A DNA stretch of 32,191 bases from Paludibacteraceae bacterium (GTDB taxonomy: Bacteria > Bacteroidota > Bacteroidia > Bacteroidales > Paludibacteraceae), in the NCBI GenBank assembly GCA_016938015.1, contig JAFGVL010000081.1, forward strand, positions 1 to 32,191, written 5' to 3'. This document shows, in pieces, positions 29,733 through 31,798 of the stretch (position 1 is the first letter of the stretch; every line of letters starts with the position of its first letter). The notes below the pieces were generated by a model. It did not search any database, was not told where the DNA came from, and saw only the letters and a list, made by a program, of their open reading frames with translations. The position numbers were made by a program, and so were the translations under genes.

Positions 29733-29852
29733 AGTTTAAAAATGAGATGGTAAAACTTTAAAAATGTGTTGCTAAAGTACAGCATAATTTATACAGAAAC
29801 GATAAAAATTACAAATTTTTACGCAAGTGTTCTAAAAAATAAAAAAATGACT

Positions 29853-29860
29853 TATATTTG
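29853..29860 (+). promoter_or_regulatory. Promoter -7 box of the tRNA-Gly/tRNA-Leu locus
   Basis: TATATTTG is a full match to the TAnnTTTG box and is followed by GCAGTC, the context typical of Bacteroidota tRNA promoters. Only a degenerate -33 (GTGTT near 29827-29831) is present. The transcript would run through the tRNA-Gly fossil before the two real tRNAs. Confidence 0.65.
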
Positions 29861-29919
29861 CAGTCTCAAATTTAAAAAGGAACTGAAGAGTCAGCCTACT
29901 TTGTTGAATAAATTGAAAT

Positions 29920-29991
29920 GCGAAAGTAGTTCCGATGGATTGGGACACGACCTTGCCCAAAGGTTATTAATACACCGACCTTGGCAAGTTC
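29920..29991 (+). pseudogene. tRNA-Gly 5' fossil
   Basis: The start is identical to the real tRNA-Gly: GCGAAAGTAG (29920-29929), then a changed D-arm (TTCC...GGGA, which still could pair), then a match to CACGACCTTGCC in the anticodon stem and loop. After that the sequence falls apart. At 29975-29988, CCGACCTTGGCAAG is the reverse complement of part of the real anticodon arm (30054-30067). There is no T-arm or 3' acceptor strand, so it cannot make a tRNA. It is probably the result of a tandem duplication of the tRNA 5' part followed by decay or template switching. Confidence 0.7.
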
Positions 29992-30023
29992 AGATATTTC
30001 TCATTTGTTGAATAAATTGAAAT

Positions 30024-30096
<73 letters not shown>

Positions 30097-30136
30097 CAAT
30101 GTTTGAGCAAGCATGTTTTTGGGACGAAGAAGTTTA

Positions 30137-30180
30137 TCCCGATGACGAAGGAAATCGGGAAGTCCCGTCTTTCGCTCAAT
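30137..30180 (+). repeat. Duplicated tRNA-Gly 3' tail preceded by a small palindrome
   Basis: The last 15-16 nt of tRNA-Gly and the following CAAT (20 bp, 30081-30100) are repeated exactly at 30161-30180, 80 bp downstream. The copy is preceded by an inverted repeat TCCCGAT...ATCGGGA (30137-30143 with 30154-30160). The copy has no 5' half, so it is a tail fragment. Confidence 0.85.
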
Positions 30181-30208
30181 AAGGAACGTAAGTTCCTAGT
30201 CTACGGAC

Positions 30209-30292
30209 GCCCGGATGGTGGAATTGGTAGACACGCAGGACTTAAAATCCTGTGGCTTCACGGCTGTGCGGGTTCAAGTCCCGCTCTGGGTA
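30209..30292 (+). tRNA. tRNA-Leu (anticodon UAA)
   Basis: 84 nt, class II tRNA with a long variable arm. The acceptor GCCCGGA pairs with TCTGGGT (two G-T pairs). The anticodon stem CAGGA pairs with TCCTG around loop CTTAAAA, giving anticodon TAA. The variable arm spans about TGGCTTCACGGCTG. The T-arm is GCGGG TTCAAGT CCCGC. The discriminator is A; no CCA is encoded. It is likely cotranscribed with tRNA-Gly and followed by a terminator. Its 3' end is duplicated twice downstream. Confidence 0.96.
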
Positions 30293-30293
30293 C

Positions 30294-30320
30294 AAAGAGA
30301 GTTAATAGCTCTCTTTTTTT
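30294..30320 (+). terminator. Terminator of the tRNA-Gly/tRNA-Leu transcript
   Basis: AAAGAGAG (30294-30301) pairs with CTCTCTTT (30309-30316) around a 7-nt loop, running into a T tract. The same hairpin, with one base changed, is duplicated at 30833-30859. Confidence 0.85.
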
Positions 30321-30334
30321 ATTTTTAAAAAGCT

Positions 30335-30577
30335 ATGTTATATACTGTTTATGCTATAAGAAGTATTGAAAGGAACTATATTTATGTAGGAATGACATCC
30401 AATTTGTTGGAGCGGCTACATCGTCATAATAGTGGATACGAAAGGACAACAAAACCGTATGCACCATTCCTATTGTTGTATGAAGAAAAATGTGCTGATC
30501 GTTTAACTGCCAGACATCGAGAAAAATATTTGAAATCAGGAGTAGGAAAGGAATTCTTAAAAAGTTTAGAGAAGTGA
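30335..30577 (+). CDS. Small GIY-YIG nuclease domain protein
   Basis: An 80-residue stand-alone GIY-YIG domain. The two signature tripeptides are TVY (4-6) and YVG (17-19), followed by the conserved Arg27 (NLLERLHRHN) and the metal-binding Glu63 (RHREKYLKS). All expected catalytic positions are therefore present. Length matches the common 80-100-residue UvrC-N-terminal-like/YhbQ-type proteins that are multicopy in many Bacteroidota, often beside tRNA genes (general knowledge). It starts about 15 nt after the tRNA-Leu terminator and ends six nt before a tRNA-Leu 3' fragment. It has no clear promoter of its own. Likely a DNA endonuclease; a homing or mobility role is an inference from its position. 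Confidence 0.85.
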   Translation: MLYTVYAIRSIERNYIYVGMTSNLLERLHRHNSGYERTTKPYAPFLLLYEEKCADRLTARHREKYLKSGVGKEFLKSLEK

Positions 30578-30583
30578 ATGACA

Positions 30584-30649
30584 TGTGGCTTCAGGGTTGT
30601 GCGGGCCTGCCTGTCGGCAGACAGGTTCAAGTCCCGCTCTGGGTACAAA
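30584..30649 (+). pseudogene. tRNA-Leu 3' fragment with palindromic insertion
   Basis: 30584-30605 matches tRNA-Leu 30251-30272 with two changes (variable arm and first T-stem strand). 30626-30649 matches 30273-30296 exactly. Between them, a 20-bp near-palindrome (CCTGCCTGTC GGCAGACAGG, 30606-30625) is inserted exactly between the T-stem and T-loop. The 5' half and anticodon are missing, so this cannot be a functional tRNA. Confidence 0.85.
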
Positions 30650-30685
30650 AAATCCCTCTTAATGTTTTGATTAAGAGGGATTTTT
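30648..30685 (+). terminator. Strong hairpin terminator behind the tRNA-Leu fragment
   Basis: A perfect 16-bp stem (30648-30663 with 30670-30685, core TCCCTCTTAAT) with a six-base loop. Both ends are A/T runs, so it works on either strand. It differs from the original tRNA terminator. Confidence 0.85.
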
Positions 30686-30742
30686 ATATTTTGAAGGTGT
30701 ACTAAAAGTGTACTATATTAACTTTTTCTAAAACTAAGAACC

Positions 30743-30822
30743 ACTCGCTGCCGCACGATTTCATCGTGTGGTAATATATCATTACTTACTTTACCATGCG
30801 ATGAAATTGCGCGGCAGCGGTG
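30743..30822. repeat. Long imperfect inverted repeat ending at a tRNA-Leu tail copy
   Basis: 29-nt arms (30746-30774 and 30791-30819) match as inverted repeat with four differences, and extend by CAC/GTG past a one-base bulge. The arms contain CGCTGCCGC, ATTTCATCG and TGGTAA. The loop is about 16 nt. The right arm abuts the duplicated tRNA-Leu 3' end at 30822. It has no coding capacity; it looks like a non-autonomous palindromic element. Confidence 0.8.
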
Positions 30823-30860
30823 CTCTGGGTACAAAGAGAGTTAATAGCTTTCTTTTTTTA
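30822..30860 (+). repeat. Second duplicated tRNA-Leu 3' tail with terminator copy
   Basis: 39 nt matching 30283-30321 with a single change (TAGCTC to TAGCTT), covering the last 10 nt of tRNA-Leu, the spacer and the terminator hairpin. The change weakens the stem. Confidence 0.88.
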
Positions 30861-30862
30861 TA

Positions 30863-30894
30863 AAAAAAGCTTATCATTTACGATAAGCTTTTTT
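30863..30894. terminator. Bidirectional terminator at the end of the tRNA locus
   Basis: A perfect 13-bp stem (30863-30875 with 30882-30894, core AAGCTTATC) with a six-base loop and A/T-run ends. It ends five bases from the stop of the minus-strand MauE-thioredoxin gene and also closes the plus-strand locus. Confidence 0.85.
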
Positions 30895-30898
30895 AGTT

Positions 30899-31798
30899 CT
30901 ATTTTTCAAAGAAATTTAGTATTTCTTCTTCATTTAAATCTCTATAGCCGTACTTCTTTTTTACTTGGCCATTTTCTAATAGAAGTATTACCGGCATTTG
31001 ACCATCTGTTATCCGCAGAAATTGATTTGCATCCATTGTTTCGTAGGCAAAACGTGTGCTGTTTGTTGTGGTAAAGAATTTTTCGATTCGCTCTTCATCT
31101 CCCCAAAAAATAATTGAAAAGGCGGATTCTTTTTCACTTATTTTTTCTGCAATTACAGTTAATTTTTTAGAAGAAAGCTTGCAAAAACGACAGCCGGTAC
31201 CGTAAAAACAAATTACTTGTTTACCTTGTAAAGTTCCTTTTTGGGTTAAATATTCTTGTAGCGCTTGTTCGTTATAGCTTGTTTTATTGGCATAAGCCGA
31301 GATATTAAAATTGTCGGGTGGAGACACACTAAATGGAATAGCCAAACTAACAACTATGCCGAGTATGGTGGCGGCTGTTTTAAATCTGTACGAAGATGGT
31401 TTGTGTTGTTTTAGTACCAGCAATACAAACCCCATGATAACTAAATTTTTAATAATGGAGTTGGTATGAGAAATTTCTAAAACATCGCCAAAGCAATGGC
31501 AATTTTCGGGGTTTTGAGTAAAAATAAGGTATACCAAAAAAATGATAAAAGACAGTAGCATGGCAAGTGTACTTAATGCTACCAATTTAATGTAAGCGTT
31601 TAAAATAAATAGCACACCCAACAGTAACTCAAATCCTATTACTATGCGAGCAAATAAAAACGAAAGAGGTAAGCTTAAAATATTAAAACTGTATATATAG
31701 ATCTCAAAAGAATCTATTGAGAGGAGTTTTGATAGCGCTGAAAAAATAAAAATAATACCGGTAAGTATGCGCAAGGCAGTTATAATAGGTTTTTTCAT
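30899..31798 (-). CDS. MauE/DoxX-like membrane protein with thioredoxin-like domain
   Basis: A 299-residue fusion. The first 155 residues hold four or five membrane helices of the MauE/DoxX redox type, with a conserved PENCHCFGD motif (Cys100, Cys102) in the loop after the third helix. After a final helix near 140-157, an extracytoplasmic thioredoxin-like domain (about 175-299) carries CRFC (Cys203, Cys206) in FYGTGCRFCKL and a cis-Pro-like DGQMPVILLLENG. It probably passes electrons from the membrane domain to the periplasmic thioredoxin-like domain for disulfide or thioether chemistry (inference). Such fusions are common in Bacteroidota. It is alone on its strand and is preceded by the lipoprotein gene at 31928. 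Confidence 0.88.
   Translation of the reverse strand: MKKPIITALRILTGIIFIFSALSKLLSIDSFEIYIYSFNILSLPLSFLFARIVIGFELLLGVLFILNAYIKLVALSTLAMLLSFIIFLVYLIFTQNPENCHCFGDVLEISHTNSIIKNLVIMGFVLLVLKQHKPSSYRFKTAATILGIVVSLAIPFSVSPPDNFNISAYANKTSYNEQALQEYLTQKGTLQGKQVICFYGTGCRFCKLSSKKLTVIAEKISEKESAFSIIFWGDEERIEKFFTTTNSTRFAYETMDANQFLRITDGQMPVILLLENGQVKKKYGYRDLNEEEILNFFEK

Follow-up and report, generated by a model that had tools for sequence, protein, structure and literature searches.

The locus described here raises the question of how a gene for a small GIY-YIG nuclease came to be bracketed by pieces of a tRNA-Leu gene. It lies near the end of a 32,191-nucleotide stretch of DNA from a Paludibacteraceae bacterium (Bacteroidales), hereafter the window, which is contig JAFGVL010000081.1 (C3) of a 2.0-Mb draft assembly. 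The original prediction, made from the sequence of the window, was that the nuclease may cut a tRNA gene and be copied in together with a tRNA tail that restores the target, as integrases do but without any integrase. Comparison of the window with related genomes and a survey of the nuclease family make it quite probable that the locus harbors a mobile mini-element that consists of one small GIY-YIG gene and a replacement piece of the invaded tRNA gene and moves by a homing-type mechanism.

The tRNA-Leu locus and its empty counterparts

Intact genes for tRNA-Gly (30024-30097) and tRNA-Leu(taa), both called by ARAGORN, stand in tandem in the window, and the latter is followed by terminator T1, the GIY-YIG open reading frame (ORF), a displaced tRNA-Leu 3' half that starts a few bases after the nuclease stop codon, terminator T2, flanking sequence, a hairpin and a remnant (Table 1). 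The direct repeat on which the original prediction was built is real: it spans 40 nt, of which 39 are identical, its copies (30283-30322 and 30822-30861) start 539 nt apart, and each consists of the final 11 nt of tRNA-Leu and its terminator. The intact GIY-YIG ORF and an additional, palindrome-containing tRNA-Leu 3' fragment are present between the copies as well. The distal copy, however, is not the boundary of the element that it was taken for; the true junction is the middle fragment, behind which the native terminator and flank follow.

The evidence on the junction comes from two genomes of the same genus (G002 and G003), which share with the window the upstream peptidase gene (identities of 72.9 and 74.3%, respectively, by tblastn) and the tRNA-Gly/tRNA-Leu pair but lack the nuclease, and so provide the empty tRNA-Leu site for which the original prediction had proposed to look. 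Positions 30648-30740 of the window align with the sequences that follow tRNA-Leu in these genomes (scores of 30.5 for G002 and 40.5 for G003, with none of 1000 shuffled sequences scoring as well), and a segment of G003 (C3:287177-287201), located a few dozen bases 3' of its tRNA-Leu, agrees with the window flank at 25 of 25 nt. T1, by contrast, shows no clear alignment to the same flanks, 37 and 121 of 1000 shuffles, respectively, being as good. Because the flank of the empty site matches the sequence behind the displaced half, and not T1, the native 3' half and its terminator have been pushed downstream, and the half that now completes the tRNA, T1 and the nuclease gene constitute the insert, of approximately 330 bp. 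Judged from these alignments, insertion into a tRNA gene with restoration of the target is demonstrated, and it involved a nuclease ORF, a tRNA half and a terminator but, as predicted, no integrase. We read the intact tRNA-Leu as a mosaic, with an apparently native 5' part extending to about position 30250 and an element-borne 3' part at about 30251-30293. The junction was decided by local alignment with shuffles; in a MAFFT alignment of the occupied and empty loci, the latter paired with the upstream copy, which concealed the displaced flank. A third genome of the genus (G001) has Gly-Leu pairs without the nuclease and was left uncounted because the stretches obtained from it did not show the upstream gene.

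Occupied and empty alleles were also found at a tRNA-Arg(acg) locus, which was searched in at least 20 genomes of a single genus; stretches were obtained from 17 of these, and the site was readable in 15. It is occupied in five (G132, G314, G308, G311 and G315) and empty in ten (G232, G301, G303, G305, G310, G316, G304, G307, G302 and G313), with G312 (cut 11 bp before the tRNA), G317 (no tRNA in the stretch), G306, G309 and G318 left out. The occupied allele consists of the native promoter, tRNA positions 1-22, a palindrome, the next tRNA positions, the nuclease and a complete tRNA. The coexistence of occupied and empty alleles of one site in close relatives is the pattern displayed by free-standing homing endonucleases. 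The flank and the tRNA-Leu of another locus, L213, have matches in Algoriphagus sp. (G297) and Belliella (G300), and the L213 nuclease lacks a DNA match at this place in either genome; on this evidence both read as empty at that site, with the proviso that a diverged nuclease would escape a DNA match. An array in G251 (L118) was dropped as an empty-site case: the tRNA 5' half is missing, and a search of the genus gave no clean site.

Other features of the window region include two tRNA-Gly fragments that are likely to be scars of older elements; their arms are altered or palindromic, and a similar arrangement is found in G002. The segment 30746-30861 lies beyond the native flank and, apart from the T1 copy, yields only short matches in four genomes of the genus. 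In G003, the sequence that follows tRNA-Leu at C3:287177 recurs at 294668, about 7.5 kb downstream (89% identity over 28 nt), as if an island had integrated there. There is no second gene in the insert, where the other ORFs are short overlapping frames, and no self-splicing group I intron around the ORF: at the Rfam gathering threshold, only the two tRNAs were detected in 29800-30900.

Table 1. Annotated features of the tRNA-Leu region of the window (positions in the 32,191-nt stretch)
Feature	Position	Strand	Basis or remark
Likely older scar: tRNA-Gly 5' fragment and leader	29900-29991	+	5' of intact tRNA-Gly; D-arm altered; nuclease gone
Likely older scar: tRNA-Gly 3' fragment	30137-30180	+	TCCCGAT..ATCGGGA palindrome at 30137-30160; nuclease gone
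Intact tRNA-Leu(taa), read as mosaic	30209-30293	+	ARAGORN; Rfam tRNA, 58.5 bits; displaced native 3' part downstream
Terminator T1 and spacer, element-borne, between tRNA and nuclease	30294-30334	+	No clear alignment to empty-site flank
GIY-YIG nuclease ORF, 80 aa, catalytic domain only	30335-30577	+	Pfam PF01541; AlphaFold2
Displaced native 3' half of tRNA-Leu (tRNA position ~43 to 85)	30584-30646	+	Followed by orthologue of empty-site flank
Palindrome P1, 20 nt, in T-loop of displaced half	30606-30625		Sole exact P1-pattern match in the 2.0-Mb assembly
Native terminator T2 and native downstream flank	30648-30720	+	Aligns to G002 and G003 flanks behind tRNA-Leu
Large imperfect palindrome adjoining distal tRNA fragment	30746-30819		29-nt arms, 86% complementary
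Distal remnant: 11-nt tRNA-Leu end and second T1 copy	30822-30861	+	39/40 identical

The nuclease family, its tRNA genes and its palindromes

The protein encoded in the window belongs to the GIY-YIG superfamily (PF01541, E-value of 4.6e-14, 52.9 bits against a cut-off of 22.6). The residues Y6, Y17, G19, R27 and E63, which correspond to the Tyr, Tyr-x-Gly, Arg and Glu signature of the superfamily and which we take to be catalytic, are invariant across 19 aligned sequences. A conserved Glu in GIY-YIG proteins is named in the available portion of a survey of the superfamily (PMC1564403). The AlphaFold2 model (mean pLDDT of 95.4) is a bare GIY-YIG domain with no separate DNA-binding part. Its closest solved relatives by sequence are UPF0213 (1zg2, E-value of 6.2e-16), SLX1 and the catalytic domain of I-TevI, and the fold matches agree with these, just the first passing an E-value of 0.001. 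The nuclease evolves under purifying selection, with a median dN/dS of 0.16 (range 0.05-0.37) across 36 pairs with 70-98% identity and dS of 0.1-1.5. The window protein had no match among 50,697 phage records at an E-value of 1e-3, or among plasmids and viral contigs, and carriage by a phage or plasmid was rejected on these grounds.

For the family survey, a profile was derived from 19 aligned sequences, selected among 33 small GIY proteins for being short and mostly tRNA-linked, and was searched in 247 genomes of the order to which the window belongs, at an E-value threshold of 1e-7; 126 of the genomes, about half, contain a match. The survey comprises 87 stretches added from among the matches listed in the profile search, and a named set that was collected with the window protein as the sole query and consists of the best 80 of 143 loci. 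The combined loci (L001-L271) hold 271 non-redundant small GIY ORFs, with no residual duplicates. An intact tRNA gene lies within 150 bp of 177 of these ORFs, a proportion that describes the subfamily captured by the profile: 90 have the tRNA upstream (type A, as in the window), 76 downstream (type B) and 11 on both sides. The gap between tRNA and nuclease is 30-60 bp in 68 of 101 type A cases and 3-15 bp in 46 of 87 type B cases, and in 18 of the latter 87 the ORF overlaps into the tRNA. All 177 nucleases are encoded on the strand of the tRNA, no tRNA being present within 150 bp on the opposite strand, so that transcription reading through from the tRNA promoter is the probable source of nuclease expression. 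Among the 252 ORFs with a profile score of at least 60, 76 have no intact tRNA within 150 bp; a tRNA fragment is located within 300 bp of 57 of these, compared with 6 of 216 control windows. In a control set of 13 loci whose GIY domain is part of a UvrC-size frame, no tRNA was found in the fetched 3.2 kb.

The association extends to the far side of the nuclease, where a fragment of the same tRNA is present in 81 of 101 type A and 70 of 87 type B cases (151/188 in total), whereas tRNAs of another isotype reached the fragment threshold in 25 of 564 comparisons. The excess of fragments of the adjacent tRNA at related nuclease genes, which the original prediction had offered as a check, thus exists, and chance is an insufficient account of the arrangement in the window. 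(Unknown-type and selenocysteine tRNAs were kept in this count and left out of the inner-edge and perfect-stem counts below.) The displaced piece is the 3' part of the tRNA in type A and the 5' part in type B; in the type B loci that were read, promoter-like native sequence precedes the displaced piece, and the intact tRNA stands close behind the nuclease. Copying in with a tRNA tail, as originally proposed, therefore holds for the window, and in nearly half of the family it is the 5' half that is supplied instead. The inner edge of the displaced piece in the Leu lineage falls at tRNA positions 24-40 in 35 of 43 type B and 28-43 in 14 of 24 type A cases (a few rows of this count are pseudo-tRNA calls), which places the junctions around the anticodon; the junction varies more in the other isotypes, and in many Val elements nearly the whole tRNA is displaced, with a palindrome replacing the anticodon arm. 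At one locus (L235), the native tRNA-Leu is interrupted: its 5' piece is found upstream of the nuclease and its 3' piece downstream, the acceptor ends of the two pieces pair with each other, and the intervening sequence comprises the nuclease and a complete tRNA-Leu whose acceptor stem is different.

Two or more nuclease copies within 800 bp were detected on 35 of 221 locus-strands, the spacing of the repeat units being mostly about 300-450 bp; such arrays would be expected if amplification were driven by breaks at the tRNA, as it is by SegB in phage T6. The L118 array (G251:C13:72200-76500) contains five full-length, near-identical nuclease units at intervals of about 395 bp; every unit is accompanied by a tRNA-Val 3' piece, and there is no intact tRNA at this place.

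Within the family, the nuclease lineages track the tRNA isotype more than the host. In the named set, for which the protein alone was the query, 76 of 88 nucleases are located at a tRNA gene, and 74 of the 76 at tRNA-Leu genes with varied anticodons. On a tree of 168 proteins, the isotype changes 31 times, compared with 78-88 times for shuffled labels, and for Leu alone 5 changes compare with a mean of 56. The Leu clade spans Bacteroidota, Ignavibacteriota, four lineages of the Candidate Phyla Radiation (CPR) and two metagenome-assembled genomes (MAGs) assigned to Pseudomonadota, for which misbinning is possible. For 140 of 164 proteins (63 of 86 excluding Leu), the isotype is shared with the nearest relative from another genome, compared with a mean of 45 and a maximum of 66 for shuffled labels over all 164; four mislabelled rows (L104_1870, L138_162, L256 and L263) are included in the tree count and dropped from the nearest-relative counts. 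In 18 genomes with at least two isotypes, 40 of 43 nucleases are closer to the same isotype elsewhere than to another isotype in their own genome, and the same isotype is the closer one in 38 of 43 when the comparison is with other-isotype samples of equal size drawn from other genomes. As counted from these sequences, isotype tracking holds across Bacteroidota, Ignavibacteriota and CPR. Leu-lineage nucleases are found on contigs named as Nomura-, Sacchari-, Doudna- and Spechtbacteria of the CPR (L222, L226, L255 and L256), and the D-loop palindrome of L256 resembles the one in Bacteroidota.

Palindromes are concentrated near the nucleases. In 79 named loci, pattern P1 has 70 occurrences in the 61 kb within 250 bp of the nucleases and 3 in the remaining 329 kb; the corresponding counts inside and outside in the other 141 loci (118 and 255 kb) are 18 and 5 for P1, 79 and 21 for P2, and 17 and 12 for P3. 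At least one of the three patterns is present near the nuclease in 58 of the 79 named and 63 of the 141 other loci. Perfect stems of at least 7 were found in 27 of 79 type A and 19 of 64 type B displaced segments, the corresponding numbers being 2 and 2 for intact tRNAs (of 79 and 64, respectively) and 0 (A) and 3 (B) for shuffled segments; as such stems occur in a minority of displaced segments, we do not claim that a palindrome is always present. A mirrored orientation of the palindrome in the two types was considered and set aside, the observations (26 forward, 0 reverse and 21 symmetric in type B; 1, 2 and 6, respectively, in type A) being too few for such a claim. Chance landing of a dispersed palindrome is unlikely for the window genome, where the exact P1 pattern, which misses 19-nt variants such as that in G004, occurs once, in the displaced tRNA-Leu half. 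In draft G048, the exact pattern has 24 copies, compared with 0-2 in five other genomes searched, and is thus dispersed there. Possible roles of the palindromes include blocking renewed cutting of the displaced half, blocking loss of the element by recombination between the halves, and regulation of the nuclease transcript; RNA hairpins are described at several phage T4 endonuclease genes, including segB, in the available text of PMC2988022. Pseudo-tRNAs with a palindrome in place of the anticodon arm occur in L015 (G038:C3), L013 (G060:C20) and L104 (G229:C1); several of these are called as unknown or wrong type by ARAGORN and may pollute tRNA annotation.

Proposed homing and the competing explanations

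Taken at the sequence level, nuclease-driven homing appears to be the best-supported mechanism. The nuclease would introduce a break into an as yet unoccupied tRNA gene belonging to a single isotype (Leu in the window; in the Leu lineage, the break would fall in the anticodon region), and repair from an occupied copy would introduce the nuclease gene along with a fresh 3' half and terminator (type A) or a fresh 5' half (type B). One functional tRNA would be kept, and the original half would end up on the far side as a pseudo-tRNA, often rewritten by a palindrome that would protect or stabilize the element; read-through from the tRNA promoter would supply the nuclease. As regards the destruction of the recognition site that in homing spares the donor, the tRNA sequence is restored, and the displaced half is often interrupted by a palindrome.

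Several observations weigh against this scenario. A bare 80-aa domain with no DNA-binding part does not account for isotype specificity, and restoration of the tRNA would seem to bring the target back, which requires some means of avoiding self-cleavage. The acceptor strands of the restored and displaced copies are identical in 48 of 53 type A and 46 of 60 type B cases (some of the remaining cases reflect misregistration by a palindrome), and the flanks of the two tRNA copies are alike, that is, above the 95th percentile of controls, in 28 of 44 type A and 17 of 50 type B cases, including several tandem arrays; these features fit better with copying within one lineage than with pieces from distant donors, and transfer from a near relative or copying of the cell's own gene may explain the identical strands as well as donor pieces would. 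In the remaining type A loci, including the window, L088, L090, L098, L150 and L204, the carried and native terminators differ. Neither a tRNA nor a fragment is found near 19 of the 252 ORFs that score at least 60, and 18 of the 19 ORFs with lower scores have no tRNA nearby, 9 of these 18 with a fragment. The figure of 177 out of 271 derives from a profile of selected tRNA-linked proteins and does not apply to all small GIY genes. The tree is based on 84 columns for 168 rows, and 91 of its 165 inner branches are open; with so few columns and so many open forks, single branches are untrustworthy. Most of the genomes are draft MAGs, in which some repeats may be assembly faults; the pattern is present in named isolates, too.

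The main competitor, to which we assign a minor yet appreciable likelihood, is an SLX1-like, structure-specific nuclease without isotype specificity that acts on cruciforms formed by tRNA arms and palindromes, the element moving by ordinary homologous recombination through the tRNA it carries, with isotype fidelity stemming from homology. The bare catalytic domain, the enrichment of palindromes in displaced halves and the position of SLX1 as the next-nearest solved relative after UPF0213, by sequence and by fold, are all compatible with this possibility, but most displaced segments lack a perfect stem of at least 7, and pure homology would not require the lineages to segregate by isotype even within single genomes.

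Homing, which we continue to favor, also has to be set against scenarios without movement of the nuclease gene or with another agent of movement. It is improbable that a resident, immobile nuclease gene sits by the tRNA, pieces of which were copied by slippage or unequal crossing-over: nearby copies are common, and in many loci, as in G004, the two tRNA copies have like flanks, but this account is already largely contradicted by the empty orthologous sites with readable junctions, which would all have to be secondary losses, by the difference between T1 and the native terminator, by isotype clades that span phyla, and by the complete, different tRNA in L235. Slightly less credible is a host-serving or addiction role, for example, as a tRNA-cleaving toxin with a pseudo-tRNA decoy or an anti-phage system. 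Some displaced copies are indeed cloverleaf-like, with an altered anticodon arm, and are called by ARAGORN as tRNAs of unknown type; against this, GIY-YIG enzymes are known as DNA nucleases, many of the pseudo-tRNAs are mere halves, and occupancy is patchy within one genus. The least credible proposal, which we reject, is a remnant of an integrase-borne island that had integrated at the tRNA 3' end as its attachment site and no longer has an integrase. Such islands are typically recognized by direct repeats of a tRNA 3' end, but the insert in the window contains no recombinase or other gene besides the nuclease, the repeating units are mostly about 300-450 bp apart, nearly half of the family restores the 5' half, the Leu-lineage junctions are mostly around the anticodon, and the same layout recurs in many genomes.

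Precedents and biological meaning

Integrative elements that enter tRNA genes bring along an end with which the tRNA is made whole again, and their insertion creates a direct repeat. The insert in the window differs from these in being far smaller and lacking a recombinase, there being no tyrosine-recombinase gene between the repeats, and in its family either half can be restored. As far as the available text goes, the closest principle that we found in print is that of the fungal mitochondrial mORFs, which carry a replacement 3' end of their target (atp6 in Allomyces; atp6, atp9, cox2 and nad3 in Glomus; PMC3630166). In both cases, an endonuclease gene is inserted in a gene, brings the end that keeps this gene whole and displaces the native end downstream. 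The elements described here, however, reside in bacterial chromosomes, target tRNA genes of a single isotype in place of protein-coding mitochondrial genes, include a 5'-half mirror form and often mark the displaced half with palindromes, and the insert in the window is only about 330 bp long; given the different target, the element works like an mORF but is not classified as one.

The closest precedent for the enzyme, again judged from partial texts, is SegB of phages T4 and T6, a free-standing GIY-YIG homing endonuclease in a tRNA cluster (PMC13096335, PMC2988022) whose cleavage sites lie inside tRNA genes (the motif RAWTSGAAC is present at 23 of 83 sites) and which causes the tRNA locus it occupies to amplify in tandem (PMC13096335). 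Like the nuclease gene in the window, segB adjoins tRNA genes; unlike it, segB is phage-borne and located between tRNA genes, and no carried or displaced tRNA half is described in the available portions of these papers. No close phage-carried relative of the window protein was found among the phage records and viral contigs searched, SegB itself not having been compared. UPF0213 and SLX1 are the closest relatives with solved structures; a difference is that eight longer stand-alone small GIY loci (L002, L005, L006, L007, L011, L014, L016 and L017), possibly UPF0213, have no tRNA within 150 bp, and at least L007 and L014 are also among the 19 ORFs with nothing nearby. The Tsy transposon with a GIY-YIG gene was set aside because, in the accessible text (PMC10293859), it targets comM and employs a tyrosine recombinase. 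The available text of the 2006 survey of GIY-YIG proteins (PMC1564403) contains none of the terms "bacteroid", "flavobacter" and "cytophaga", and its three occurrences of "tRNA" are in other contexts. Among the matches listed in the open-licence literature, there is no description of tRNA-borne GIY-YIG elements in bacteria; such descriptions may exist elsewhere.

What emerges looks like a little-noticed kind of selfish DNA, and small GIY-YIG genes of this type are easily passed over. We tentatively suggest, as a possibility that is a serious one and still open to considerable doubt, that these elements form a new class of bacterial selfish DNA: a complete, autonomous mobile unit, about 300-400 bp in length and encoding one 80-aa enzyme, in lineages that each own one tRNA isotype across several phyla, that can restore either half of the tRNA, and in which the displaced half is marked with a palindrome as a programmed step, for self-protection or as a block to excision. 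If most of these genes are parasites of tRNA genes, they would be, to our knowledge, among the smallest autonomous mobile elements. The tRNA fragments and odd pseudo-tRNAs in these genomes would then be explained, and the elements would be seen to reshape tRNA genes while leaving a functional copy. The isotype-specific lineages also provide a natural panel for asking by what means a bare 80-aa nuclease selects its one tRNA gene and how the restored target escapes cutting.

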